Part shown: positions 1 through 29,800 of the stretch, in pieces
Layout: every line of letters begins with the position of its first letter
Position numbering within the stretch: position 1 is the first letter of the stretch
Origin: Protonemura montana
Taxonomy: Eukaryota; Arthropoda; Insecta; Plecoptera; Nemouridae
Direction: 5' to 3'
Assembly: GCA_947568835.1 (NCBI GenBank)
Contig: OX387606.1
Span: 4,278,001 to 4,342,000 of the forward strand
DNA length: 64,000 bases
Translations under genes and position numbers: made by a program
Notes under the pieces: generated by a model
The model's database searches: none
Told to the model about the DNA's origin: nothing
The model's input: the letters and a program-made list of their open reading frames with translations, nothing else

Positions 1-440
1 GCTCCCAACGGGCTGCACGCCCTGGCACCGTGCTAAAAAATTACATGCTATTTTCTTAGACACACCAAACCAGCTAAAGGATCCCTTAAAATTTTAATAA
101 GTATTTAAGATAGGATGCTTCCGCGTGGAAAATAATCTCTTTAAAAATATTATCTTCCTCTTATGCCTACTCCCTGTTTCTCTCTTCTCTCTGTCCCTTC
201 TATCTTTCTCTCTCTCGTGAGTTAAAGCTCTGTGCGCAAGCGGAGATCGCCGAGTTTATGAAGCTGGATCCGCCTGGAGTAATGGGCTAGCCAAGTCACG
301 TATTACCCCGTGTAATTGTAGAAAACAACTCGGGAACAGATGCGAATGTGATAGCAAGCCATGCGGAAGGTCCTGGCTTCGATGTCTGCAGCTGGCACCG
401 AGCAGACCATTGCATTCGTAGTCGGCAGGGTTGGGAGGGG

Positions 441-505
441 GTCGTGGCTCGCTCAGATTCAAGACTTATCAAGCCAAGAAAGGTTCGAATCCTGACAGGC
501 TCGCA
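441..505 (+). repeat. tRNA-like (SINE-type) fragment
   Basis: A perfect pol III B-box-like motif, GGTTCGAATCC, lies at 482-492. About 37 bases upstream is a weak A-box-like string (TGGCTCGCTCAG, from 445). No acceptor stem can be closed, so this looks like a SINE head or tRNA relic, not a working tRNA gene. Confidence 0.45.
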
Positions 506-1083
506 ATTCTTCTCGCGAGGCACTTCTCTCTGGCAAGACGATCTAGATTTTTTAGACTGTTCGGATCTTTCGTCTATGTCTTATGAAAGCACGTGCCAAT
601 GCTAAATAACCAATGTGTGATATCTTAAAAAAGGGGTAGTGGTGTCAGGTCTGCTGTGTGCTGTTTACTTTTCTCGTGACCGAACAATGAGTGACACTGC
701 GTAACAATGCCTTGCACTTGCAATCGACGCTGCATTAATCTGGAAACTGAATGATGCTTTTATCCTCTTTGGCAGTGTGCAATTTTCTTCGTTTGGATGC
801 GAATTGAGCAGTCACTGCGAAACCATGGGGTTCATTTGTCCTGACGAGCGAATCGCTTGGACCGAGCCAAAGGTGTATGAAACGCGAGTACCGTTCTTAA
901 TTACGAAATGGGCCAGCAATTCTTGGCAACTGCATGATGTCTCGCTCGGAGGGCGCGCACGCGAACGCGAATGGCTTTCCCGATTTCAAAAAATAAAAAA
1001 AGGAGTTGCGAATCCTCCAGAGAGTGATATTAATGGCAGCGCCCGCGTGCTCGTTCCGATCTACGCTACGCGTGTAAGCGCCA

Positions 1084-1101
1084 CCCCCCCCCCCCCCCCC
1101 C
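1084..1101 (+). repeat. Cytosine homopolymer with CT-rich flank
   Basis: An uninterrupted run of C followed by a C/T-rich and ACC-rich stretch to about 1122. Such runs recur in the window (21838-21862, 23450-23463, 36870-36886, 43565-43590), some as G on this strand. Confidence 0.9.
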
Positions 1102-2322
1102 TCTCCCTCCCACCACCACCCAGATTGGGCGAACATCAAATAACCGAGCCACCCCTTACTCAGGCCACCCTCTTATAATTATTAGCTGAGATCTGAAGCA
1201 GCCTGATCCCGTCTCGCGGCTCCCAACTCCCTGCGGTACTTGAGACAGAACAGCTCCAAAGCCAAGAACTGCTCGACGCGACAGAAAGGACGAGAATAAT
1301 TATTTCGTTTGCGAGCTTTGAGTTAATCTTTTAATGATACTCGTTATTAACAGATCGTTAGAGCAGGAAATGTTATTTAGCTTAATAATTGTTATCGGCT
1401 TCTTGATTCAATTTTGTATAATCGTCAGTATTTCTTCATTCCGGTATATAGATCTATTTATATCGCTGGATTTAGCCACAGGAAATGGGAGATAAAAATC
1501 ATAAAATAGCTTTGCAGTTTGAATATTAGTTTGAAGCATGGCTGAAATGAAATGAATATTGGTGCTTGGACTATAGTGTGTCGGTCGATGCTTAGTGGCA
1601 CTTGGCGTTCACCGAGCCAGCGTCGCTATCGTGCGGGACCATCGCTGTCTCACGCTTGTTCCTGATGCCACGTCCTGGTTCCAGCTGCTTCCAGGCACAG
1701 AGAGCTCTTCAGCTTCTCGATACACAATAGGACTGCAACCGTGATGTATCATCTGAACACATCTCCGACTTAGACACGATTTATGCTCTTAAAACCCTCT
1801 CGGGAGAGTCATGAGAGTAAGGATTGCTGTCATATCTGTATTATACACCTCAGTAATAATTCTCGCGTCATTGTTTAGGTTTGTACACGCTCTAGGTGAA
1901 ATGCTTTTTGCGCGGCGAAAAGGGAAATCCGTTTGCGTGCGCCTGCTGTGCGTTGCTGTGCGTCGCGAAGCCTTAATAGAAAATGCAGATAAGAATTTTC
2001 GAACATGCCATACAAGTTTTGGTTCATTATTTAATTCTCAAGTTTATGGCATAAATTAGTCACGGAGCTCTCTGGAAGGCTAGTTTGTAAAAACTCTTAT
2101 CGTTAGAGGTTAATGGCAGCTCTTATGAAAAAGTTAAGCAGCAATTAACTGGGAGTTGGTGTAGTTATCACAAACCAGATTGTCCTTAATATTTTAAAAT
2201 TTTAAAGCTGAAGTCCGGCACCTCCACGCCTGCTTAGACGTTATGTCATTTGGCCTCCAGAAACTTGTCGGCGCCCGCTTAAATCGAGTCCGTGACGGAG
2301 ACGTGTCGTATCTTGCTTGCAG

Positions 2323-2993
2323 TGCCATTCGACGGCAACGTGACTTCTGAGACAGAGGAAAACCCAAGCGAAGACGAGATCTTCGTCAACTCGCTCGACC
2401 CCGACCTGGTGTGGGACACATTTGAAACGATCACAGCGCCCAAAGAAGGTCAAGGTTACGTGGAGGTCGTCATCGGTGTCCTCACCGCCATCATGTTGCT
2501 CCTTCTCGTCGCTTTTGTCGTCATCCTGATCCTGAGTCGACGGCAAAAGTTACAAGGCTCGCCGACGATCCTGCGAAACCCTTTCGGCGTGACGATAAAC
2601 ATGAAGGACCTTCTGATGAACTTGTCGCCCATGTCACCAAGCAACGGCGTGGTTAGCGCTCCGTCTCCCGTTGCGCACGACCCTCCACCGAGCGACCCGC
2701 CGTCTCTCAACCTCGAGCCGTACAAGTCGCCGCTGAGCTCGTACGCGACGCCTAATTACGCGACGCTGCGCACAAACACCGAGGTGTTGGAGCGTCGCGA
2801 CAGCATGGATGGCGCCGCGACGCCAACGGCCGTCACGGGGAGCTTCTCGTCGCTGCAGTTCAGGAGTCTGCAGACGACACCGGTTGTTGGGCCGCGTTCG
2901 GAGGTCGTCAATCTGAGCGGATACTTCCCGAGGGTGGGCACCGATCCGCCGAGCCGGAAGCGGTACCATACTGCTCCGAGGGAAAAACATCGG
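2323..2993 (+). CDS. Ddr: DDR exon: transmembrane and juxtamembrane region
   Basis: The acceptor is TTGCTTGCAG, with the first two bases completing a codon; the donor is CGG|GTATGT in phase 0. It encodes PFDGNVT at the start, a 23-residue hydrophobic helix at about 2466-2534 followed by RRQ as stop-transfer, then a Pro/Ser/Thr-rich cytoplasmic stretch. Several tyrosines (EPYKS, NYATL, SGYFP) are plausible phospho-docking sites; the TPNYATL string resembles the NPxY-like juxtamembrane site of DDR1, but that is only a likeness. Confidence 0.88.
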
Positions 2994-5900
2994 GTATGTT
3001 AACACATAGATAGGGTGTGAGTGTATTGTTTTTAAGGTTTTTGGAGGTGGCAGGAGTTGGGAGAGGGGACAAATATGTTAGTGTAGGGAGATTGCTTCTC
3101 TCTATTATGTGGTGAAAACGGGACAAGATCTTGTGTTTTTTAATTGCTAACAGTATATAAATGAGAATTGATTGCGACCCAAATCTTGAAATAATCAGAA
3201 AACAATGCGTGTGCTTACTATAGTAAGGTACTAGAGGTACGGCTAGGCTCACTTTCGTACGATCAGATCATTTAATTGGGTAACAGAGAAATAGCATACC
3301 TACGCTTTTTTCTTTGGAGGCTGTTCAAAATTAGTTTCACAATGGACCGGTCGGTCGCAGCAACTAGCAGTTAAGTACTTCAATGATGACAGTTAATTAA
3401 TAGGCGGTGTCTATTCAAGTTGCCCTCCACGTTGTCTTAGCTAATAGTTAGCGAACTCTCACTGAACTTGCCCAACTTGGAAACAACGAGCCCTAAGATT
3501 GAGCCTAGTAATATTGCGTAAAGTAGACTTCGGAGAAGCAGCGCTACGACGTTCGCCCGAAGTTTTAGCGCCGGCCCCCTTTGGCGCCATCTACCTTGTG
3601 ATGCGTACAATAAAGCTCGCTCAATTTCGCCGTGTGAAAATATCTGACAGGGTTCCGCTCAGTCTATGTACCGTAGCTTGTTGTGTTTTATTGAGCGAAC
3701 ATGTTTACTTTTAATCAACATTCACTGTTCTGTTAGTCTATCACCAAACCTAATCACCAAACCAAGTCTATCAGCTGTCCCAGAATATGATTGCATAGCA
3801 TTTTTAGAATATCGGGGTTTTTTTTCAGCAAAAGGACCAGAATAGGACTGTGTAGATCACGCAACCTTTGCTGACAAAATCCTAATGCTCTAGGCCCCGC
3901 CCCCGGTTGTGACATGGAACATCGCCCCCAGCATGGGGCACTCCTACAAGTGCCGGGAGGCCGAGCTGGTGCCGATACCACGATACTGTCTGCGCATGGT
4001 GGACAAGGTCGGAGCATGCCATGCAGGCGAAGTGATCCTCTGCGAGACTGACGGCCTCAACGACATCATCCCTGACGTCGGGCGAATGGTCGCAGTCAGG
4101 ACCGCCAGTACCAAGGCTGATGGTGGCACAGCGGACGCGCTGCGCGAGGTAGGCAAAGATAGGGTTGCTCATTTTCTCATTCGGGTCATTTCGGTCAAGT
4201 AAAAATTTAATGCCTGGGCAAAATCAGCATTTCATTCATAGTTTGTCACTGATATTCATAAACAGTTTGCGTTGAATGCAGTGTTTCACGACCATGTTTT
4301 ATTTCCCGGGGGCTTTTCACAGTAAGCTTAGTTTTCCAGCTAAGCGAATAAAACGTCAGGTGCCTGTCAGTTAGCTTTCACGGCTTGTTATGGAAAGCCC
4401 GGAGATCGGTTGGTACGCTAACGTCTAGTCGATTAACATCCGAATTCTCGATAATCGATGCCTATTGGCTCTTGCCGTGGTTACCTCTGATTCGCCGAGT
4501 CAATTATGCATACCACAATGCATACCAGCATTGCAGCTAGCTGAAGCATTTCTGATCGCGATAAACATTCCGAGAAAATTATCAGAGAAGTTTCTAAATT
4601 CTCGTCGTCCTGCTCAGGTGCGGTTCCTGGCGAGCCTGTCTGACGCCAACGTGGTCCGAGTGCTCGGGGTGTGCACAGCCGAGCAGCCAGTCTGGACCGT
4701 GCTGGAATACCCTGAGATGGGCGACCTGGTGCACTATCTGCAGTACCGGTTACCTATGTCTGCCTCGCTGCGGCCCAGCGAGAAGTTACAGGCCCTCAGG
4801 TATGCTTTGTCACACTCTACACTCTACACCAAACGTGAAAATCATGTCGCTTTTAGCTGGCCAAGGGCGAACTGTATTACCGTATATACTTCTGGTTTCA
4901 CCGCAATGCAACATTGCTCCAGGGCCATAGCCAGTGCACTTTTCTTACACCATGGTTTTTGGCGGTTCGAAAACAAAATCCCCAGTCAGCTGAATCGAGT
5001 GGGACCGCGTCCTTACACAATTTAATTCTCATCCATACATACTAATTAGATTCAGGAACAAAATCGCCTTTGACAGACAAAGATCCTGTGAGGGAAAACA
5101 AGCCATTCTTGATGTCTCAGTTATCTAACGGCAGATTGTTTTGCAACAGTTACGGATGTCTGATCTTCATGGCGACGCAGATCGCATCGGGAATGAAGTA
5201 CCTCGAGTCGAAGAACGTCGTCCACAAGGATTTGGCAGCAAGGTAGCAGACTTTCGATGTTGTACCATACCTGTACCCGCAATAACTAAGCCCAACTCAC
5301 AAGAGTTATACTACACAATGAAACCTTGCAAGTAACACTCCCTCTGGGCGAAATAGTCTTGGCACGTGTGCTAATTATTTCAATATAGCGCGGCCATAAA
5401 GGCGAGGGTTGCTAACAAGTCTGCCACGTGACAGGAACTGCTTGGTCGGTCGAGGCTACTTGGTCAAGGTCGCCGATGTGGCCATGTGCAGCCAGCGTCA
5501 TGCCCAGGACTACAGTGAGATCGGCGGGAGACCCCCGGCGCCCATTCGATGGCTGCCCTGGGAGAGCATCCTTTTGGTACTGTACTTAATCATTGCACGT
5601 AATAAGAGTTAAAATTGCATTTCACACCTTGATTATCCTTTATGATTATCATTTATTGAATTCGTTTCATAATGTGTAACACTTTCTTTTGAAATATTAC
5701 GGGATATTGCAGAAAAACATCACATACATGTTAGAATAAAAGCTGCTGCAATCTCCCTTTCTCTACAAATCGAACATACCTGTGAGATTTAAAAATACAT
5801 GTATTTTTAAAGGAAGAACAAACCTTACAAGTGGTCCACGATCATTTACCCTTCATTGAAATTCTGCAACAGACTCCAGACAACATTTTTCACTCTATTA

Positions 5901-7204
5901 GTTCACCAGGGTCCACGAGAGATGTTCTCTGTTGTTTAACGGCAAATTATCCTGCAGGACCGATACTCTAGCAGCGTCTGGGCGTACGGAGTGACCCTCT
6001 GGGAGATCCTGAGCCTCGCCCGGGAGAAACCCTATCAGAACCTATCCAACGACGAGGTGATACAAAATGCCGAGCGAATGTACTACGGGGAGGAGCTGCA
6101 GGTTTGTTTTGTTACCAATTCGCACTAATCGCCCTGCATACCGTGTTATTTCAGTATTTCAGCTGATCCGTTCGTTTGCTCAGAATGGCTTTTCATGAAA
6201 TGGTCGCAAGCACGCACACACAAGCGATATAATAATAATAATAGTTGAAGCAAATATTCTATTGCTGTCCGGTTTGCATGCACTCGACAAGTCAATCATT
6301 TTATATGTGCAAGCAACAGTAGCGGTTTGCAATTAGGTCAGTGTGTAATGAATGCTTTAATGAACGTGCCAATTGGCTGGCAAATTCATAATGAATTAGT
6401 CAAAGCAATTCCAATGTTGCGCTGGTATTTCAATCACCATTTCCGTAATTGCAGCATGAACTTGGTGTAAATCGATTTCATTATCCGTTTATTTTTATGC
6501 CCACTATGATGGGCAACAGCATATTCAGATCACAATATCTGCCGTTTGAAACTATTTATTATAGATGCATGCAGAATTGGTAGTTGACACTTACGAAAGC
6601 CATTAAATTTGCATGCACGTGATGCCGCTCATTATATGGCAAGCTAATAAATATTTACTAGACATTAATTAAATAATTTATAACTCGCGACCTAGGTGGC
6701 ATGTACTGGATTACGATGGAATATCGGCGTTTTTTAGGATGCATATGACAAGACGGCAACTGTTTTATCGGCCCGTGCAAGTGATATAACTATTTTGCAA
6801 GTACTCCTGAAAGAGAGACACATCAGACAGGCGGCACGCGTTTCGTGCATTTGCGTCAATGTTATATCTGCTATATCTTGATTGGGTTCGATTGCCACTG
6901 GATGCATGAGTTAGCGCAACTTTATTTTTTTGTTTTATCTTCAAGTAGTTTTTGTCTTTAAATTTCTCACAAAACCCACGCTGAATGGAGTGCCATGACG
7001 CACAACACAACACGCTTTGGTGTTCTGTTTCTAATGAATGCCATTTTGTGTCAGATTCTGTTGCCGAAGCCGACACTCTGTCCTGTCGAGATGTACGATC
7101 TGATGAGCGAATGTTGGCGAAGAGACGAAAGTTTGCGGCCAAACTTCAAGGAAATCGTCATGTTCTTGAAGCGACGGAACATCGGGTACCGCCCCGGCGA
7201 CTAG
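2323..7204 (+). CDS. Ddr: Discoidin domain receptor (DDR) tyrosine kinase-like, 3' part; probable pseudokinase
   Basis: Seven exons join in phase: 2323-2993, 3894-4148, 4618-4799, 5150-5242, 5435-5576, 5958-6101 and 7055-7204 (TAG). They give about 544 residues; the extracellular discoidin half lies off the left edge. Order: acidic membrane-proximal stretch with an NVT glycosylation sequon, one transmembrane helix, a Pro/Ser-rich juxtamembrane region, then a tyrosine-kinase fold ending soon after the alpha-I helix. DDR hallmarks are [28 protein letters not shown] and CWRRD..RP.F. In the family this is a collagen-binding plasma-membrane receptor kinase. Here the beta-3 Lys is Arg (VAVR), HRD is HKD, DFG is DVA and the glycine loop is GACHAG. 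The alpha-C Glu, catalytic-loop Asp and Asn and the DFG Asp remain. I infer weak or no kinase activity, with signalling by scaffolding or through a partner. Confidence 0.9.
3894..4148 (+). CDS. Ddr: DDR exon: kinase N-lobe start (glycine loop, VAVR)
   Basis: Phase 0 at both ends (TGCTCTAG acceptor, GAG|GTAGGC donor). It encodes [16 protein letters not shown], the degenerate nucleotide-binding loop (4011-4028), and MVAVRTAS, where the beta-3 Lys is Arg (codon AGG, 4098-4100). It is slightly shorter than vertebrate DDRs between the loop and beta-3. Confidence 0.88.
4618..4799 (+). CDS. Ddr: DDR exon: alpha-C to hinge
   Basis: The acceptor is CCTGCTCAG and the donor TCAG|GTATGC, ending after two bases of a codon. 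With the previous exon it reads [20 protein letters not shown], matching the alpha-C Glu region of DDRs, then [15 protein letters not shown] as the hinge. The open frame runs past the donor into the intron, so the donor is chosen by homology to the next exon. Confidence 0.88.
5150..5242 (+). CDS. Ddr: DDR exon: alpha-E and catalytic loop (HKD)
   Basis: It encodes [13 protein letters not shown], nearly identical to known DDRs, then VVHKDLAAR. The HRD Arg is Lys (HKD at 5223-5231), while the catalytic Asp is kept. Splice sites are TTTTGCAACAG and AG|GTAGCA. Confidence 0.9.
5435..5576 (+). CDS. Ddr: DDR exon: activation segment with DVA in place of DFG
   Basis: It begins [22 protein letters not shown] sits at 5475-5483 where kinases carry DFG. 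One activation-loop tyrosine remains in QDYSEIGG, where vertebrate DDRs have a Tyr cluster. It ends [12 protein letters not shown] in phase 0 at a TTG|GTACTG donor. Confidence 0.9.
5958..6101 (+). CDS. Ddr: DDR exon: alpha-F to alpha-G
   Basis: Phase 0 at both ends, 48 codons. It begins [18 protein letters not shown]. Relative to the DDR pattern it is two residues short before VWA, and the invariant alpha-F Asp of SDVW is absent. [20 protein letters not shown] follows, as expected for the DDR alpha-G region. Confidence 0.88.
7055..7204 (+). CDS. Ddr: DDR terminal exon
   Basis: After a TTTTGTGTCAG acceptor it encodes [20 protein letters not shown] and RPNF, the end of the kinase fold with the conserved alpha-I Arg kept. 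A short tail (GYRPGD) precedes TAG at 7202-7204. Confidence 0.9.
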   Translation: MLLPKPTLCPVEMYDLMSECWRRDESLRPNFKEIVMFLKRRNIGYRPGD

Positions 7205-8921: not shown

Positions 8922-9143
8922 CTACTGTCTTGTTATTACATTACTGTAATCAGGTAATGAGTTTTCGACGACGGAGAACACTGGTGCCAGAGGGTCTTCT
9001 GGGTTGTTCTGCACCACGATGTTGGCTAGTGGCTGCCGACCCACCATCTCCGTGATCCTCCGCGCAGTCAGCTGACGTTGCGCCAATAGGTGATCCGTTC
9101 TCGCTTGAAGCTCCTCGCTGCTCAAAGGTTCCTCTCCAGAAAA
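8922..9143 (-). CDS. Nhe: NHE exon 16, stop at 8922-8924
   Basis: Acidic, Gln-rich end of the tail (EEPLSSEELQARTDHLLAQR), finishing SNVITRQ before TAG. Codon use looks coding throughout. Confidence 0.85.
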   Translation of the reverse strand, partial: FSGEEPLSSEELQARTDHLLAQRQLTARRITEMVGRQPLANIVVQNNPEDPLAPVFSVVENSLPDYSNVITRQ

Positions 9144-12100
9144 CTGCAAGACAAAGACAAATGATGATTATGCGCAGTCCGGTCTTGAGAACACGGACAC
9201 AACAGCTTGTCGTGATGGAAAATCAGTTTCTTTCAAGATCACCGAACACTGCTCTGGGGCATTAGCCCCAGTTCAATTAGTTCTGTTCGGGAGTGAAGTT
9301 GGAGGGTGCTAAGTCAGTACCACAGCTTCACTTGCCTTATCACTTGGCCATGCTATCGAGAGGTTGATCACAATTGTAATACATGTATATAACCTCTTGA
9401 TAGCAGATTAGAGGAGGAATCTTGTTGTAACGTCCTTGTAAGTCGTCGGTGCACCCATGCTTACATGCCTACACCGGGTTTTCTCCGTTCTAGGCTACGT
9501 TCATGAATTCTTTCATTTTTTCAATCGCCTATTCATTGACCGACGACAGAAGACCATTGCCACATGTTCTGTTTTCTAAACAGTGCGTCATTAAGGACCT
9601 CAATCGAAGGAAACAGCCACTCAAATAATTAAGACCACAAAATTTCTTATTTGTCCTATTTGCAGTCATAGAAGCTTAATGAAAAATTAAGTGAAACTGC
9701 TCACCTTTTCGTGTGGGTAATTTCTGAAGGACCGGCGCAGTATATCGGCGCTCAGAATATCTGAGCTGTCACTGTTGGTGAATGTGCTACCTGATCGTGA
9801 CCTGGTCTTCGGGTTCAGATCGGGTACCGTAAGCGAGTAGATGTCCCCGTTGTGGACGGACACGTTATAAAGCGACCCGTTGGCGGACAGTGGTATCGGA
9901 GTCATCTGCAGGCCTTGGTCATCGCCGTCGGACTCGGGACGGAATATCCGAGCCCTGTTCTCCTCACCCATGTGCACAGCGCCGTAGAGGTGGGCAAAGT
10001 GGTCTCTGGAAAGAAAATCAAATTGTATATGAAAAGGAAATTAGATTTCGTTTCACGTTGTAAAAATTTGAATGTTTTATGGTCCATCATTAGTTGAGGC
10101 ACTTACGTAAGGAACAACTTTGTGTTGAGCCTAGTCAGTTTGTTTTTCGGCTTGTTCACCAGAAATATCCTTTGCATGAAGGTCTTGTCGATGTAGGTCA
10201 GTTTTTTCTAGATCACAAAATCAATGTCATGCAAAGTTCTGTAAACCACGCAAAAATCACTGGCCTTTGAGCGTACGTCGCCGTCGTGAACGACTTACCT
10301 TGATAAAGTGGTCTCGCCGCACTCCCGTTATCTCTTCGATGCCGGCTATCACGTTGCTAATGAGCTAAAGAGTAAAAAAATGTGCAATTAGTGACCTTCC
10401 TTCTCATTAGTGCGGCCTGCAGTTAGGAAAAATCTCCACCTTGACTTACATTGTCGTTGATTTCTTCACACATTTGTCTTTTGTCTGTTCTGTCTCGCTT
10501 GATGCTCAGCCACCCGACTATTGGCTTGATTGTACCTCCCTGAAAAAGTGCACTCTTTATTTTGTTTATCTCTATGTCGGCATTGAGAGTATCCCATCGA
10601 AATCTCTCGCGTCGTTGTGTAGGTCAAGGAAAGAGAGTACTTGAAACGCATACAGTAAGTAGCAGTGTAAATAATAGTTGGCTATTTCTGTGACAAGTGT
10701 TCAGCGCGTAGTAACTTTGGATTACCATCAAGGTGCACCATGAATGACCCTGTGGTTATTATGCTGATAGCTAAATATCTTAACGGAAAATTTTTGCAAT
10801 GGACTCTTACGGCACTATTTAATCCTTTTTAGACCGACTTGACTACAGCGTAAAAATTGCATTGAGAAATAGACATTTTCAAATCTCCCTACTTTTTTGG
10901 TGTACAATTCACCAAATTTTAACTATCAGCACACATTTTCTTGTCGTAACAACTTGCGAAATACAATAAATCAATACCTGGACGAAGACGGTGAAGAATA
11001 TGACGACCAGAGTAGTTGTCACCAACAGTTGTTTAGACTGGATGTCATTCTGGTCGATGGTCTGCACCAGTGAGAAGGCGATGGCACCGCGCAGACCCCC
11101 GTACGCCAGGATCAACTGCTCTTTGAACTTGATGGGCGTCGAGCGGACGAGGTTGGCCAATGCAGTCAAAAGGTAGACTCCAGCGAAGCGGCACACGAAG
11201 CAAAGGAATAGCGACCACAGGACGAAACCAGTGCTCCAGACGTGGTTATCGCTCACGATTACAATGCCCAGGAACAAGAAGATTATCGCTTCGCTGGTAG
11301 CACTGGAAATAATAAACTAATTATTCTTCTGAAGAGTCAGTCAAAGTTGTATAGGGCGCTCACAAAACTCCAGGAAGTTTTTCTCATGTTTTACCGCTAG
11401 CATCAAGCTTTTGGGAGAATAGTTTAGGTAAGGCTATTGTCAATACCATTGGTAAATACCAGTGATGGCTATGAAACCTGGACATACGTGGAGTCCATGA
11501 CAGAGACTTGAGGCTTTTCGTAGAGGAAATTAATTAATAACAACCGATCAAATACCCAGATTTTTAAATCAAATCTTAATTCCACGAACTGTCAATCAAT
11601 CCTCAATCAATAGCATGATTATCGCTAATCCATTGTCTTTATCTTCATGTTAGTAGGGCGTGCACACTGAAGAATGTCCCAAACATGGTCCTATCAGATA
11701 TACAGATAAAAGAAGCTTGTATTTGATGATTATATCATGCCCATGTTCTGCGAGTGGCATCATTACCTTATCATCTTCGTGAAATAGATGACAGTAGTTT
11801 GCGATTTTCGGGACATATTTTTTAGCGCGTAGTGTGCTTGCATCAGGCCGCACGCGATTATGCTGGAAACGAAAGCATTAATTAGGTTGTTTTTTTACAG
11901 TACGTTTTCCCACGAGGATATTTCATAAATACTCGTTGTTTGTGACAGTATGTACCTTAGGATTCCAGAGAAATGGAACAATTCTGCGACGAGGTACGAG
12001 AGATATGCGACCCCCAAAACCGCCAATGGCTCCACCACTAAAAACCAGAAGCGCAAAGGGTCAAGGACGAAACCTCAAGGATGGAGACGTGGATGAATTT

Positions 12101-15100
12101 CAAGCAAATTCTTGATGTTGCTCTAGGTCGAATTCTTTGCAATCATCGATGATTATGAGAAACTTATTGAATTTCTTCGATTGCTTGAGCCAACTTCGAT
12201 GTGTCACTGATGTTGTCAAAAAAGGAAATGAGTCACAAAGAATAACCGACTATCGCCGCTGTGGCTCTTTTATGTCTTATTTCAGTATACCTCGTATTTC
12301 GTTCTGCTGGGTAGTGCGGGTGATCAGCGCCGTGAGGAGGCCGAAGACTGCCCCTATGACTGACCCTCCTATGCTGGACGCCAGGAAGGCGGCCACAGCG
12401 ATGCCGTACTGCTCTCCGGGGATGTGTGACATGCCGTGGAAGGTGACCATGGTAGCATAGAGCACCACTGTCACGGCGTCTGCAAGCATCGCGATTGTAT
12501 AAGACTCGGAAGCGTGGGTCACAAGTCTTCTTACATTCTAGCCAGCGAGAGAAGATATCAAAACATGGACTGCCCCATCGACTAACCCATTAATTACATT
12601 TCAGTAGTGATTTCAGAGGAGGCGTTTCAAAATACTTATTTCGCATGAATATCGTATGAATTTTGTTTGCAATAGCCTGGAAATCGACCCGTTTTTAGAC
12701 GACAAAGCGTTGGAGCAAAACCGAAATAGCAGATATCGAAAGAGGCTATTTTAGTGTTGGGCCGCCCCAAAATATTGGTGACGCCTCTGTCCGAAAAACA
12801 TTTTATCTAAAAAAAAAAAAAAAAATATCGTGAAGCCATTCTATTAGAGCCAGTTTTGGAATGTTATTACAGCTTAGGGAAACGCAACGGAACAAGTGTG
12901 TTTCATGCGTTTCAACTAGCACTATTGATGAAACCTGTTCAAGGAGATTTCTTTTCAAGGAAAATTATACAAAGTGAGCTATTTGGATATGAAAATTCAA
13001 TGTCGATACACACTTGTTTAATTGTTCTTCTATGTCCCCCTCCCTCTCCCTTCCTGGTTGGCTGATGATCACCAAACTCCCACTTTTTTTAACACTAGAC
13101 CACTGCTCCCATTTAAACAGACTTTTAATCACTTTGTGCGACTTACATAGTTTTGAAACATTATTATTTGTTGACAATGGTCGCAGTCAGATATTATTGC
13201 CATTGAATTATTTTATAACACCGCGATAACCTAAAAATGAATTAAGGTACATATAGACACAATAATCGTTCAGCGTTACCGAGAAAGAGAATATTGTGGG
13301 TTTTCTGCAATGTCAAAAGCTTATTGGATAATGACCATCGTGTCTCGTCAATTGATCTCTGATCGGTGTGTTTCGCTTAATCGCTTGTGCCAAATCTTGT
13401 TGTCGTAAAGATAAGATGTTTTACAAGCCTCTGAATCGGCGATAGAACGCAATAAGATCGGCCAATAGCTCGCGCTAATTCGATGCCAGATTAAGAATTA
13501 AGATGGTATCTCGATCGAAAGAAAGCAAATCGATGTTATTCGCAGCAGTGTATTGGCTCCATCACCAGTTGCCAATCTCTACCGGCATTCTCTGATTGTT
13601 TTTATTGACACACTATTATGATTGATAACAATTTGGCTTCATTTAGAATGATCGATCGCCTTAGGATTTATTTTTTGCTTTGCACATCTCTACATTTTAC
13701 ATCTCATCTCATACAATTTCAGATTAATTGTTGCACTCTATATCATTTTTTTTCGTGCAGTTATACAAGTGCAAAATGGAGATTAAAAAAAACCGAAAGG
13801 GCAATAAATCATTGCATTGGAAGTGAATTAATGGAACGCGGATTGTTTTCTGGGCTCATTATTTTATATTTAGAAAATTGTAAGTAATTACCGGTTGCTC
13901 TCCAGGTAAAAAAAAAAAAAAAAAACAAAAATCACTCTAGCACAAATATTCAAAATTGGTGTTTTTTGAAGATTACACCTACATAGAAAATGTTGTTTCA
14001 ATGCTCAGGACATACCGTTAAAGAGTGACTCGCCGAAGACAAGATAATAGAGGTCTTTGTTGATGCCGATCTCCTGGAAGATTGCGAGGACGGCAACGGG
14101 GTCGACTGCAGCAATCAGCGTCGAGAACACCAGGCAGTCGATGAGGCGCAACTCAAAGGGCAGCCAGCCCATCGCCCCAATCGATGCCAGTCCGTATAGG
14201 AGAGGTCCTGGACCAAAATCAGGAACTATGTCACCTATTGAATTTTCATTCAACCTCACGAATGTTAGCTTTAAGAAAACTATGTGTTCAAAAAGCACAG
14301 TTTAATCGCATTATATCATCAGTCTTCCACAGTATTTCGCACGGAATTTTCATCGGATTACTTACCAATTGTGAATATGTTGAAAATTGTTCCCTGTAAG
14401 TAAAAAATAACAAATTGTATTAATTTTGCCTTGTAAGTGGTATAGGTAATATGATGAGTGATTTTCTATCTGTTAGAATCGTGACTTACGACGACGGCGA
14501 AGAGCAGAACTGTGCCCATATTGTCAGCAAACGCCTTGTCATAAAGCGAATAGGCCGCTTCTAAAATCACACTGCAAGAAGAAAATTCATTAGCGGCCAA
14601 TTGCTGGCTGTTAACGACCACTAAGTCTACATATCTTAAGTGATGCTTACGGTGGCAGTAAGATGAAGAAGAAGGATCGCGGAGTGAACTTTGGCACTGC
14701 CACCGACTCTCGGAGCATGTTGACGATGTAGTCCGCGAAGTTGCCATCTACGGGCTGGCTCGAGAAGCTAAAATGGTGCAGGAGTTAGCATTGAGTCTAC
14801 CCTGGGAGCGTTGCTCAGTTGCTAAGACCGATGTACAGATCAGAATACTTACAAAATTATGGCGCCCACGGCAACACCGACCGTGATCATCAGGCTGTAA
14901 AAGGCGGATTGAAATTTAATTTTGAAGTTATTTTCTTTTAATGCTGAGCTAGAAATTAGGTTTAGAAACAATCTTACCATGACTCTGGTATTCTTGACGA
15001 CAGCCAATGAGCGTGATGAAAAGCTGCAAAGGAAATATCAGTTATTTTGAGTCTGAGATAATGAAAAGCATTTAAATCATGAAATCATGAGTGCTGCAAG

Positions 15101-15384
15101 CTTTCAGTATTTCTTTAGAAGCGGGTCGACCACAAGAAAACACAAAACCAAACGCCATTACTACAGCAAATATCCGCTAGATAAGTTTCTTGCTAAAAAT
15201 AGGCACTACTTTGCCAAGCATGCTCACCAATCCTCGCGAGGCCGCACACAATGGTGAAGGAAGTGAAGGTGATGAAGACGCCGACTTCCTCCCAGCGCCA
15301 GGTGGCGATGTGCACCCCACTGTGGTCGTTGGCCAACGCACCCTGCGTTACCACGCTCAAGACGAGCAGCGCTGCGTGCCACAT
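8922..15384 (-). CDS. Nhe: Na+/H+ exchanger (SLC9A, NHE2/NHE3-type), complete
   Basis: Sixteen exons join without phase conflict into 711 codons. In order of transcription: 15384-15228, 15023-14978, 14894-14853, 14767-14651, 14571-14490, 14393-14366, 14207-14016, 12479-12291, 12037-11956, 11862-11767, 11302-10978, 10539-10450, 10364-10299, 10207-10107, 10005-9705, 9143-8922. It is an electroneutral plasma-membrane antiporter by family. Residues 1-20 form a signal peptide, followed by about 12 membrane spans. Transport hallmarks are AAVDPVAVL (190-198), FGESLFND (215-222) and AYGGLRGA (410-417); the cytosolic tail follows from about residue 453. The ATG has G at -3 and an in-frame TGA 27 bases upstream. 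The tail is shorter than that of mammalian NHE3. No key transport residue appears lost. Confidence 0.93.
9225..9345 (+). repeat. SINE-like element sharing its tail with the 5S-derived element at 24.2 kb
   Basis: Lies in the last NHE intron, on the opposite strand. GTTCTGTTCGGGAGTGAAG and the following ~60 bases match the tail of the minus-strand 5S-derived element at 24245-24165 (GTTCTATTCGGGAGAGAGG). The upstream part, GATCACCGAACACTGC, may be a collapsed 5S remnant. Confidence 0.5.
9705..10005 (-). CDS. Nhe: NHE exon 15
   Basis: Regulatory tail rich in Ser/Thr (RSRSGSTFTNSDSSDILSAD). No strong family match beyond position; the phase and splice sites fit on both sides. Confidence 0.85.
10107..10207 (-). 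CDS. Nhe: NHE exon 14
   Basis: Basic tail segment KKLTYIDKTFMQRIFLVNK, corresponding to the W..FD...L.R.L part of NHE tails. Acceptor TGATCTAG, donor AC|GTAAGT. Confidence 0.85.
10299..10364 (-). CDS. Nhe: NHE exon 13
   Basis: LISNVIAGIEEITGVRRDHF matches the amphipathic tail helix (IL.GIEDI.G) that binds CHP-type calcineurin-like proteins in mammals. Phase 0 at both ends. Confidence 0.88.
10450..10539 (-). CDS. Nhe: NHE exon 12
   Basis: GGTIKPIVGWLSIKR marks the end of the last membrane span and the start of the cytosolic regulatory tail. Phase 0 at both ends. Confidence 0.9.
10978..11302 (-). CDS. Nhe: NHE exon 11
   Basis: The largest membrane exon, from SEAIIFLFLGI through EQLILAYGGLRGAIAFSL to IFFTVFVQ. 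It holds the conserved Arg of GGLRGA that stabilises the transport core. Confidence 0.93.
11767..11862 (-). CDS. Nhe: NHE exon 10
   Basis: Encodes SIIACGLMQAHYALKNMSRK followed by SQTTVIYFTKMI, matching the C.....Y...N.S..S.TT..Y..K segment of NHEs. Confidence 0.9.
11956..12037 (-). CDS. Nhe: NHE exon 9
   Basis: Encodes VVEPLAVLGVAYLSYLVAEL and FHFSGIL, matching EP.......YLSYL.AE....SGIL of NHEs. Confidence 0.9.
12291..12479 (-). CDS. Nhe: NHE exon 8
   Basis: Begins DAVTVVLYATMVTFHGM, completing the ND motif begun in exon 7, then IGGSVIGAVFGLLTALITR. It is separated from exon 7 by the longest intron of the gene (about 1.5 kb). Confidence 0.92.
14016..14207 (-). CDS. Nhe: NHE exon 7: ion-translocation core
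   Basis: Carries STLIAAVDPVAVLAIFQEI and LVFGESLFN. The Asp-Pro pair and the Glu/Asn-Asp motif are the cation-coordinating core of the antiporter. Confidence 0.92.
14366..14393 (-). CDS. Nhe: NHE exon 6 (28-nt micro-exon)
   Basis: Encodes GTIFNIFTIG, matching GT.WN..T.G. It is the shortest exon in the gene and is needed to restore phase between exons 5 and 7. Confidence 0.87.
14490..14571 (-). CDS. Nhe: NHE exon 5
   Basis: Continues LPP with VILEAAYSLYDKAFADNMG and TVLLFAVV. The LEA.Y......F..N.GT pattern is diagnostic of eukaryotic NHEs. Confidence 0.9.
14651..14767 (-). CDS. Nhe: NHE exon 4
   Basis: It encodes an extracellular loop (SSQPVDGNFADY) and then FTPRSFFFILLPP, the conserved F.LLPP start of the next membrane span. 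Confidence 0.88.
14853..14894 (-). CDS. Nhe: NHE exon 3 (42 nt)
   Basis: A micro-exon encoding CLMITVGVAVGAIIF across its junctions: a hydrophobic helix matching the conserved LLI.LG...G segment. Confidence 0.88.
14978..15023 (-). CDS. Nhe: NHE exon 2 (46 nt)
   Basis: It encodes AFHHAHWLSSRIPES, aligning with the KIGFH..S..PES motif of NHEs. Acceptor CTTTGCAG, donor TG|GTAAGA. Confidence 0.88.
15228..15384 (-). CDS. Nhe: NHE exon 1: signal peptide and first segment
   Basis: It starts MWHAALLVLSVVTQGALAND, a typical cleavable signal, then WRWEEVGVFITFTSF, matching the conserved W-containing start of the NHE membrane domain. The donor is ATTG|GTGAGC, phase 1. Confidence 0.9.
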
Positions 15385-17169
15385 TGCCGACAGGCAGAAA
15401 CAAGTTTCCGAAGAGGGTCACTACTCTGCAAGACCGTTAAAACTGCACATACGATCAACAGTAGGGAGGGAAACAAAACAAAGAACTAGTTGTCACCACT
15501 GGAAGTCACGGGCCGGTTCAAGAATCAAGTCACAAGGGAGTTGGGGCTCGCGGAATGACCGTCTTGCCAAATGCCAAATGAAGTGCTCCGCGAATTGAGC
15601 TAGTCTTATATCAGCCCAGTGGAGATATGCTACTGAACTTGAGCCATTCGAGATAAGCAAACCAATAGAGGACGGCGCATAGCTCGACAAAGGCGCGAAT
15701 CATTTCGAGTGATTGATTAGCCAGCAATATTAGCGTGGGTCATTTAAGATAGAAAAATTGTAGCCGCCAGGTCTTTGACCACAGATATTTGACCAAAGTT
15801 TGAAAATTTTTTTGATATGCTCTGATGAGAACCACTCTTGGCGTCAATGAAGTCAGTAGCAGCAGTAGCAAAGGAAACGGGTGAGGCCATCGTAAGTTGT
15901 GGATTAGACCTGTACTGGGACATGATTTTTGGGACTTTATAGAGCACTGTTTCGGGATGTGAAGAAGTGAAGAGGGAAGAATTGAGGGAAGTAAACATTG
16001 GCTGTACTGTGATTTCGCAGCGCAATTTGAGTTCGCAACGCAAGCGTATTTTATTTTGTTCTTTATTGATGAGCGAGTGGAGCGAAATCTTCCATTTCAC
16101 AAACCCCAAAAAAAATCTGTGTTCACAAATTAGACCCCCTGGCGGTTTTTAGTAAAATTGGAAAATAGTTTTGTAAAAAATACAAAATTTACGAAAATTT
16201 TTAGATTTTGTAAAAAACCTTTTGGAGTTGTACCTCCTATAGTATCGAATTGATGATCGAAGCGAAATCTTCAATTTCACTTACCTTATTTTATTGTTGC
16301 AAGATGGAGATGTGTCTATAAAAAGATAAATAAAACTGGCTCAAAAACTTCACAACAAACGTTGAAAATTGCAAGTCTGTAACTTTATTAGTATTTTAGA
16401 TAACGGCGTTGAACTGTGCACGCTCGGACCGCTGAAAGAGCCCAAAGTTAGAAGGTCATATTTCCCAAACTAGTTGGCATAAAACTTTCCAAAAAAAATC
16501 CTTTCGCGCGTTTGGCGACAAGTGCTGAACTAATGCTGAAATTTTGAAAAGGGTCGCAGGGGTGAAGGTAAAAAATATTCCCAAACAGGAACGACCTCAC
16601 TACAATTACTATAATGCTACAATACTACTTTAGGTTACATACGGTTACTCAAGGTAAGCAAAGTAGTATATCTTTAACACTTAACATTAAAGAGCTAAAA
16701 TCCTTCATTTTGCTTTACTTTCTCCTCACAATGCTTCAATATAGCGGTGAAAATTTGAATGGGACAAACACGGAAATTCAGTGTCAGACACTATCGCCAT
16801 CTACACCGTTAATTGTGTACTTCTGTGAAACTCTAGCGTTCGTTAATTTGCCGCTAGATGGCGTAAAAGGTTAGTTGAGAAGCGGGTATGTTCGCGAATC
16901 AATAAAGCATTTGTGGATACTTAGCTAGCAAAATCAACAACGAAATCTACAGGAACCCAGTCAACATATCGCATCCACAAAAGAGCCTACAAAACTCATA
17001 GGATATTGTTTGATATTGCACCGGGGCTAGACTAGCGTTCCTCTAATAAGGCTTGTTGCTAATGGTAAAAGCCCACATTTTTTAGTTGTCGAGTGCTTCC
17101 GCGCTGCAAGGTGAAGTGACCTAGTAAACGGTCCATGATATTTTAATATTAAAAAAAAAAAAATCCCGG
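15385..17169. other. NHE 5' flank and intergenic sequence, no gene seen
   Basis: It should contain the NHE promoter and 5' UTR, but I see no TATA box or clear initiator. AT-rich sequence with short repeats follows: a 19-base string GCGAAATCTTC.ATTTCAC occurs at about 16082 and 16262, and two oppositely oriented AGATGGCG motifs lie at 16792-16864. Confidence 0.5.
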
Positions 17170-24164: not shown

Positions 24165-24355
24165 TCGAGTGTTTGATAAGCAAGGCTAATGAAGTTGCTG
24201 TACTAACTTTCATTCCTCCGACCTCTCTCCCGAATAGAACTGATCGTGTGTATGATGGTCACCCATCCAATACCTGACTCAGCGCAGTGTTGCTTAACGT
24301 CGATGATCTCACGAGAACCGGTGTTTCCAGCACGCCAAACCGTTCGGTGTGGCGA
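24165..24355 (-). repeat. 5S rRNA-derived SINE-like element
   Basis: The minus strand is clearly 5S rRNA-like: ACCGGTTCTCGTGAGATCA, GTTAAGCAACACTG (box A region, 24299-24285) and TTGGATGGGTGACC (box C, 24270-24257), in the right order and spacing. The 5' end is degenerate. It is followed by a non-5S tail (TTCTATTCGGGAGAGAGGTC) shared with 9268-9345, which makes it a SINE3-type retroposon and not a 5S gene. Confidence 0.8.
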
Positions 24356-26835: not shown

Positions 26836-29800
26836 CTGGAAACGAGCGTGCACAAATTGGTAACGAGGTTCCAACACGGGACTGTTTAGAAGTCGCATGC
26901 TTTGAAGTTGTTGAAAGCATTTGAAATAATTACTTATTTGGGAAAGTACCTATTGATTAGTTCACCGTTTGCATATAGTGATAGAATGAGAATAATATTA
27001 AATATTCACAACTCGTACAGGTTAGTTTTCGTGCATAGAACTTTTAGTGTCAAAGCCAGAAGAGTGTGTTTTTATTTGGAACCAACAAAGCAACCCTAAA
27101 TGACAGAGAGCAACCAGGAAAATGATATAGGGTTTGTGGAATTATGATATTACTTACAAAGGAAATGGTTTCATGGAGAAGGGAGGTAATTTCTAAACAA
27201 GCAAGCATTATGAACGATTGTGAGACAAACCTGATTTTTTATCTCAATTGGATTCCCAATCACCGACTCAAATACCCAATGTTCAGGACTTTCTTGAATC
27301 TACTGACAAACGTATCATAGTTAGGCTAAGTACCACGAAAATAACAACATTTGAAAAAATAACATACTACGAAAGAATTTAATAGAAATAAATTATATTA
27401 AAGTTCTTAAATTATACCGAACAACAATTGGGCACACAAAGTGAGGATCGCAATGCATCGTGTGCACTTCAAACATTCTTTCATTACATGCATTCCTTCA
27501 TTCTCTGTGTCATGTTCCTTTGCAAAAGGTAAAACATTGGACAAGGTATGAGTCTTCTCCATAACAAAATGATATTTACAACAACATAGACATGTCCTTA
27601 GACCAACCCCGTCTCGGTCCTCCCCAAACACAGTCACTTCGTCGTGTGACGTGCCCACGCCGTCCTCTGCACTTGCGACATCAACTCGCTCCTGTTTGGC
27701 ACCTTCTCGCTGGTCGACCGCGTGATGGCGCCCACATAGGGGGGCCCGTTCGACAACCCTCCGCCTCTTCGGCCCACCACCGCCGCCCCTTCTTCGGGGT
27801 GGCCAGACACACGCAAAGATCCCATCGAGGACAGTGCCGCCGCCAGCTGCTGACTCTGCAACTTGCTCGTCGCCGTCGGCGACGTCTCAGTCTGGTTCTG
27901 TACTCGCTGCTTGCTGCTGGACCCCAAAGAGTCGAACATCAGATAGGTGTCGCCGTCGTCACCGCCCACTCTGCTGTCAAAGTTCTGCGAGAGTGGCCTG
28001 ATAAACTGCACTGGTTCGTCGTTGGAATCCCCGTGATTGCTGTCTGCCATTGAGGTGTTGAGGGGCCGCGTCAGTACCGGGGAACCTGAGTAGGAGGACG
28101 CTTGCGAGACCCGCAGGCCAACTTGCGTTGGTGATATGTTTTGCATTTGCTGCTGCTGCTGTTGTTGAGGCTGCTGTTGATGCTGATGTGAAAGCTGTTG
28201 CTGTTGAAGTTGCGGCTGGTAAAGCGAACTGATTGTGGCGTTCGGCGATTGGAACATGTTGAATTGCGATTGAGGTCGTCCCGGGGCAGGGTAGCCTCCT
28301 AACGTTTGGAGTCTTTGGAGGAGTTGTTGTTGGAATTGCTGCTCGGGTGTGGTGGGAAAGCCGAAAGTGAAGATGCCCGGCGTTGAGTTCTGATGCTGCA
28401 GCATGGACTGTCGCTGCTGGGGCGACCCGGGTAGAGGAGGGAGGTAGGACGAACGGTTCTCTATCAGCGGCGCTTGCTGCTGATGCTGAATCATTTGACT
28501 GAGGGCGTCGATCTCCTGGAAGTCGGGCAGGTAGGCTGGCGCCATTGACGGCGTCTGAGGGTCACACAGTATGGACATCTGCTGTGGCGGCCGAATGGAA
28601 AGGATGGGAGGATGAGAAACAAGAACATGTTATAAGTTGTGAATAGTTTTCCACCAACGTAGGTATATTATGTATGATTATATAACACCGCAAGATGTAT
28701 GCGTGTTTAAACATGATGATATGCTTCAACTATTTCACCAGGAAATAATTTTGATTTGCTACATATTTAATACTTCAACTGTTTTAAAAGTCCAGATCCA
28801 GTAAACTATCCTTAGCAAAGACCTGGAAGAATAATGCGAAAATGTTACTAACATCCAATTAGTTCTATTATCAAGTACTAAATTTGTAATTCCAAGGCAA
28901 AAATCAATAAGTGTTGTTTGTTAAGGCTTAATAAACTACTCAGACGTGTACCAAACAGATCCTGCTACTTACTAGTGAACATTCAAGTCATTAGACAGGC
29001 ACAAAACAGACAGGCTCTGCATTACATCAATCAAACCGTGCTGCTTTTCTTAGTTTTATCTTAGAAAACACAGAAGGATGCAATTTATCACTTATCATAA
29101 GTAATCTTTAAGTTTTGATGGTACAAATAACAACAGAACAATACAAAATGCATTCACAAACTGGTATTGATTTAACAAACTACTCAAGGATTAAAAACAT
29201 TACTGGTTAAAATACAGCAACTAGAGTATACAAAAGGTAGCGTGCAAACTGCCGCTAGCTTCAATTGTTTACAACTCGATCGCTCATTAGAAGTTTCTAA
29301 CTCAAAATAAACATCACTGAGATGCAATTTAGGTTTGTCTACAAAAATATACATTTTAGAATTTAGACCATTAAATGCAGAAGGACATGGTTGGTTTGGG
29401 AGACGTGTGCACGAATGATGGATTATTGTGTTAGAGCAAAACTACAAACAGCATGCAAATAGGTACGAGCAATCAAAGAATGCAGAAAAGTGCATGCACA
29501 GCAACGGAAGTGGACTCCCTTCGCAATGCGACATGCACTATTAAATCAACAATTAATCTGTTGGCAGACATCCAATGGCTGGGCCATCGATCATGGCAGT
29601 TTGACATACCTGAGGCATCATTGTTACTCCATGCTGGTTCTGTCCCTGGTTGTGCTGTCGCTGGTGTAACCTCTCCTGGTCTTGCAGATGAGCTACTAGC
29701 GCGGTGATGTGGTCCAAGAGCTCCTTGTTGTGTACTAGAAGTTGATGGGTGCGGGCCTGCCAGAAAAAATTGGGAAAATGTCAAAACTGTTTGACAACTA

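Follow-up and report, generated by a model that had tools for sequence, protein, structure and literature searches.

A discoidin domain receptor (DDR) gene whose kinase domain is altered at several catalytic motifs runs into a 64,000-nucleotide window of the Protonemura montana genome (positions 4278001-4342000 of contig OX387606.1, here C4), and the window carries the 3' half of this gene. The product is probably a conserved DDR that is catalytically dead or nearly so, and that would serve as a matrix-binding scaffold or as a dimer partner of a canonical paralogue, DDR-A. The labels DDR-A to DDR-D denote clustered DDR-type genes, DDR-B being the one in the window; searches beyond the window were made in its own assembly (258,480,905 bases in 34 contigs). 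DDR-B has the architecture of a DDR, an intact reading frame, changed catalytic motifs and signs of constraint, and the canonical paralogue lies on the same contig.

Inside the window, DDR-B comprises seven plus-strand exons, from 2323-2993 through a TAG stop at 7204, separated by six introns that are all GT-AG (Table 1). The first of these exons joins the last upstream DS-like exon in frame, and the first exon found for the gene, at C4:4254863, begins ∼23 kb before the window. With its exons joined from the second DS exon onward, the gene gives a frame of 845 codons (stop included) that crosses ten GT-AG introns without meeting an earlier stop, and this bears out a preliminary description of this DNA that had reported neither stop nor frameshift. 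That description had placed the receptor at 3894..5576; the frame reads as claimed over this span, but the span takes in just a portion of the kinase domain and omits the last two kinase exons. No ectodomain exons were found in window positions 1-2322, either by comparing three open frames with Pfam or with a DDR1 probe, whose best match there (E 0.16) fell outside the exon frame.

Table 1. Exons of DDR-B and extents of the clustered DDR-type genes. Positions prefixed C4 refer to the contig, all others to the window.
Feature	Position	Strand	Content
DDR-B, first DS exon	C4:4254863-4254961	+	upstream of window; placed by match alone
DDR-B, second DS exon	C4:4258194-4258425	+	upstream of window
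DDR-B, third DS exon	C4:4265854-4266001	+	upstream of window
DDR-B, DS-like exon	C4:4272183-4272359	+	upstream of window
DDR-B, DS-like exon	C4:4276148-4276489	+	upstream of window
DDR-B, stalk and transmembrane exon	2323..2993	+	stalk end of ectodomain, transmembrane helix, Tyr/Pro-rich juxtamembrane region; open frame, acceptor TTGCAG, donor GT
DDR-B, kinase exon	3894..4148	+	GACHAG 4011-4028; VAVR 4089-4100 (Arg codon 4098-4100); alphaC Glu is last codon
DDR-B, kinase exon	4618..4799	+	from after alphaC Glu to alphaD; hinge LEYPEMGDL
DDR-B, kinase exon	5150..5242	+	alphaE and HKDLAAR; HKD 5223-5231
DDR-B, kinase exon	5435..5576	+	NCLVG; VADVAMC 5469-5489, with DVA 5475-5483 replacing DFG; activation loop; PIRWLPWE
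DDR-B, kinase exon	5958..6101	+	alphaF; SSVW 5970-5981 replacing SDVW; two-residue deletion; DDR-type insertion
DDR-B, final kinase exon	7055..7204	+	RPNF; stop TAG
DDR-A	C4:4143718 (first exon found) to stop 4180772	+	GHGQFG, VAVK, HRD, DFG, SDVW; some ectodomain exon ends tentative
DDR-C	C4:3937875-3946295 (protein match 3939367-3946289)	+	GEGGFG, FIVK, HRDLAARN, DHA, SDVW; start of second kinase exon tentative
DDR-D	C4:3989438-3984938 (protein match 3984944-3986839)	-	SHVANS, VAVK, alphaC Glu to Asp, HSDISTRN, DFG, SDVW

The rest of the window holds a few features of other kinds. Exons of a Na+/H+ exchanger, convergent with DDR-B, lie on the minus strand at 9000-16000 (PF00999 at 10909-11316 and 14008-14301). 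The same strand carries a 5S rRNA match at 24228-24348 that covers the full length yet scores low (53 bits against a gathering score of 38), perhaps a pseudogene or 5S-derived repeat, and a Gln-rich open frame of 331 codons at 27637-28629 that has no Pfam match at E 0.1. Elsewhere in the assembly, arrays of TTAGG, the usual telomere repeat of arthropods, occur deep inside contig C1 as interstitial telomere-type repeats (for example at 916562-916656 and 11637666-11638095); the five-unit TTAGG pattern has 15,571 overlapping exact matches genome-wide (7,938 forward and 7,633 reverse), and the reversed pattern has one.

The assignment of DDR-B to the DDR family, already made in the preliminary description, was upheld by kinase and ectodomain alike. 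In a phmmer search the kinase matched human DDR2 best (246 bits, E = 4.4e-72, too strong to be a chance match), followed by a DDR2/DDR1 chimera and by DDR1 at ∼227 bits; a chain named EGFR (9p9u), with 216.5 bits spread over two stretches, ranked below DDR1 and above TrkA (174 bits), the first of the next families, after which came TrkB, ROR1, MuSK and PTK7. Pfam identifies the domain as PK_Tyr_Ser-Thr at 210 bits, and MAFFT alignment gave kinase identities of 43.3% to DDR2 (122/282) and 39.8% to DDR1 (113/284). DDR-B has two insertions in common with DDR1 and DDR2, a single residue before QP and seven residues further along the C-lobe. Neither occurs in TrkA, MuSK, ROR1 or RYK, and PTK7 is one column off these four in the second. 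Taken together with the first DS exon, the ectodomain aligns to residues 6-341 of the 351 in the DDR1 structure 4ag4 (E 1.3e-59), thereby reaching through the DS-like domain, where 8pe9 also matches query residues 160-332, and the DS domain matches that of DDR2 (2z4f) at E 7.8e-38. A single transmembrane helix and a long juxtamembrane region are read directly from exon 2323-2993; for the latter, no homologue emerged from a comparison with solved structures (best E 0.58). DDR-B is thus a DDR by architecture as well as by kinase sequence. Its placement as a relative of PTK7, RYK or ROR was considered and rejected on scores, insertions and ectodomain. A pattern search for relatives gave no match in viral contigs, and among prokaryote contigs it gave 50 pattern-matching stretches, none of which was confirmed.

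Mapping to bases placed the glycine loop GACHAG, the change of beta3 Lys to Arg in VAVR, the change of HRD to HKD (HKDLAARN starts at 5223) and the change of DFG to DVA exactly where the preliminary description had read them. As it also reported, the alphaC Glu, the catalytic Asp, the loop Asn (its codon split by the 5242/5435 intron) and the DFG Asp are retained. The earlier observation is right and understated, having missed the replacement of the alphaF Asp by Ser (SSVW, as compared to SDVW in DDR1 and DDR2), which is preceded by a deletion of two residues. The activation loop keeps one of the three DDR tyrosines, and several tyrosines are present in the juxtamembrane region. Restoration of the motifs by alternative splicing was considered and rejected: motif and tblastn scans of the window found no canonical VAVK, HRD, DFG or SDVW exon in or near the gene, and the few motif matches in the window lie on the minus strand, from 25547 onward. 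The DVA exon aligns to DDR2 without gaps, so a shift in splicing cannot restore DFG.

The HKD change by itself is not inactivating, and it leaves the catalytic base in place. The pseudokinase call is based instead on five losses taken together, namely the beta3 Lys, the alphaF Asp, the second Gly of the glycine loop and both the Phe and the Gly of DFG, in an open frame (GxCxxG, VAVR, HKD, DVA, SSVW) whose alignment indicates an intact fold. These motifs predict little or no kinase activity. Weak activity is conceivable, since DDR-B has kept the alphaC Glu and the two catalytic Asp residues, and the retained residues, the loop Asn among them, might allow slow transfer with an altered mode of nucleotide binding. 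We consider a weakly active DDR-B quite unlikely, as the five residues named above are gone together and all five are intact in DDR-A.

Conservation was scored over the 86 columns that are identical in DDR1, DDR2, TrkA and MuSK. DDR-A keeps 78 of these, none of its eight changed columns falling at a catalytic motif residue, whereas DDR-B and DDR-C keep 63 each, DDR-D keeps 70 and the accepted pseudokinase ROR1 retains 69. An alternative alignment with 85 such columns gave nearly the same counts (DDR-A 78, DDR-B 62).

A rival reading is that DDR-B is a gene only lately released from selection and still unbroken. The check over the kinase domain that the preliminary description had proposed gave, by the NG86 method for DDR-A against DDR-B, a dN of 0.46, a dS of 2.61 and a ratio of ∼0.18. 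Third bases agree at only 18 of 55 fourfold sites, a sign of saturation in dS that makes the ratio rough; the ratio is also an average over the two copies. With a dN totalling 0.46 for the two genes, a DDR-B that had been neutral since the duplication would be expected to show more amino-acid change. GC3 is 0.77 over the DDR-B kinase exons, as compared to a GC content of 0.34-0.46 in the introns, and DDR-B looks constrained on these grounds and on the low dN beside a saturated dS of 2.6, as would be expected of a gene kept as a protein. Its changes have nonetheless accumulated faster than those of DDR-A, with 55 unique changes against 18 in the kinase and 38 against 20 in the ectodomain (p 0.025). 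The excess is larger in the kinase but does not differ significantly between the two regions (Fisher p 0.25), so relaxation extends beyond the kinase. DDR-C and DDR-D, too, have changed faster than DDR-A (46 vs 17 and 55 vs 21, respectively). Although the faster ectodomain and the long branch of DDR-B (0.90, against 0.36 for DDR-A) are what decay would produce, the eleven joined exons are free of internal stops, their ten introns are GT-AG, GC3 stays at 0.72-0.82 in every one of the six kinase exons, and dN is far below dS. In a simulation that let the present sequence decay, by substitutions only, until an equal share of residues had changed, just 1 of 300 runs was free of stops. Decay is accordingly a highly improbable account of DDR-B.

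The canonical paralogue and DDR-B are members of a cluster on C4, within 3937875-4285204 (∼347 kb), that contains four or more DDR-type kinases. DDR-C and DDR-D were recognised in a protein search of the assembly that returned at least 67 matches at a cutoff of E 1e-3. The second, canonical DDR that the preliminary description had suggested looking for is DDR-A, which lies upstream of DDR-B on the same strand with its kinase exons ∼101 kb away. The two have homologous ectodomains, and three of their kinase introns are identical in position and phase (between S and Y in phase 2, between R and N in phase 2, and after LL in phase 0). The first kinase intron is placed elsewhere in DDR-A, which also lacks the last intron of DDR-B, and the kinases are 47.2% identical, with GHGQFG, VAVK, HRD, DFG and SDVW all canonical in DDR-A. 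In DDR-C and DDR-D the analysis covered the kinase regions, which are open, with five GT-AG introns each. Of the four kinases, DDR-A alone is canonical, and the other three carry changes at different motifs: DDR-B at the Lys, DFG and alphaF; DDR-C at DFG, which has become DHA; and DDR-D at the glycine loop, where three glycines are lost, and at HRD, which has become HSD. DDR-B and DDR-C have D-x-A in common in place of DFG.

Trees were built from few sequences. The largest (LG+G4, 1000 ultrafast bootstraps) included six DDRs and five other receptor tyrosine kinases, PTK7 and RYK being represented by the C-lobe alone, and separated the DDRs from the other receptors with an ultrafast bootstrap of 92, the human pair with 97 and the four paralogues with 89. 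Within the paralogues, DDR-B grouped with DDR-C at 75, and DDR-D joined these two at only 56; branch lengths for DDR-C and DDR-D were 0.64 and 0.69, in addition to those given above for DDR-A and DDR-B. Two smaller trees reached only 64-76 on the splits that matter, separating the DDRs from other receptors at 76 and 74 and placing DDR-A with DDR-B at 64.

The function we propose for DDR-B builds on these features. Residues that a kinase needs for holding and using ATP are gone from DDR-B, namely the beta3 Lys, the HRD Arg, the alphaF Asp, the second Gly of the glycine loop, and both Phe and Gly of DFG. Its DS domain most likely still senses matrix collagen. At the equivalents of DDR2 W52 and D69, which with R105 and E113 are collagen-site positions, alignment gives Tyr and Gly in both DDR-A and DDR-B, and the equivalents of R105 and E113 are retained in DDR-B. 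Because the two paralogues are changed alike at W52 and D69, DDR-B would be neither a better nor a worse collagen binder than DDR-A at these sites. DDR-B may pair with itself or with canonical DDR-A and signal without phosphotransfer, its kinase fold acting as an allosteric partner or a brake, and its juxtamembrane tyrosines may become docking sites once phosphorylated by DDR-A or by Src-type kinases. DDRs dimerise without ligand, and DDR-B has an ectodomain and a transmembrane helix alongside a canonical paralogue, so it could also be a decoy or dominant-negative receptor that attaches to matrix and sequesters DDR-A in inactive dimers without giving any scaffold output itself. A pure decoy would have no need of a conserved kinase fold, yet the C-lobe and the DDR-type insertions are kept and the juxtamembrane region has several tyrosines, and we regard this alternative as rather unlikely.

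The scaffold or partner role preferred here for DDR-B may be one part of a wider arrangement. As a more speculative and somewhat doubtful extension, the cluster could consist of one active receptor, DDR-A, and three sisters that are pseudokinases or nearly so, each disarmed differently, forming mixed matrix-reading dimers in which dead partners tune the live one, as a counterpart of HER3 for collagen. If DDR-B is indeed a preserved dead-kinase DDR beside a live one, collagen sensing can make use of a non-catalytic receptor, and a cluster of one canonical and three altered kinases in a single genome would provide a natural test of DDR roles that do not require phosphotransfer.

In literature on discoidin domain receptors and pseudokinases, the titles and abstract openings listed, including those of PMC3135232 and PMC3117856, mention no DDR pseudokinase, and those listed when the topic was narrowed to arthropods concern Schistosoma alone. 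The novelty of DDR-B is limited mainly by Drosophila CG34380, a second fly DDR gene beside Ddr that is compared here by its description alone and that is a possible orthologue of DDR-B, DDR-C or DDR-D. CG34380 is recorded as lethal in a CRISPR set whose listing gives its orthologue as DDR1,2 (PMC7193564), while the table of one review gives Ddr alone as the fly DDR (PMC6982143).

DDR-B resembles human DDR1 and DDR2 (5sau and 6fer for the kinase, 4ag4 and 2z4f for the ectodomain) in its order of DS, DS-like, transmembrane and kinase regions, and differs from them in lacking VAVK, the HRD Arg, DFG, SDVW and two of the three activation-loop tyrosines. Its motif pattern resembles that of other receptor pseudokinases, eight of which are compiled in Table 2 of the review PMC13259870, none of them a DDR. 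According to Section 5 of the same review, such proteins may switch on a live kinase by dimerising with it (HER3), become substrates phosphorylated in trans, or serve as scaffolds. According to its Table 2, PTK7, ROR1, ROR2 and RYK have HKDxxxxN, a degraded glycine loop and a changed DFG, as does DDR-B, and their ATP site is occluded; the GXCXXG loop of DDR-B is of the ROR1 type, its HKD is found in PTK7, ROR1, ROR2, RYK and STYK1, and its D-x-A resembles the DNA of RYK. While PTK7, ROR1, ROR2 and RYK belong to other receptor families and keep the beta3 Lys in that table, DDR-B has lost it, as have EphA10 and EphB6.
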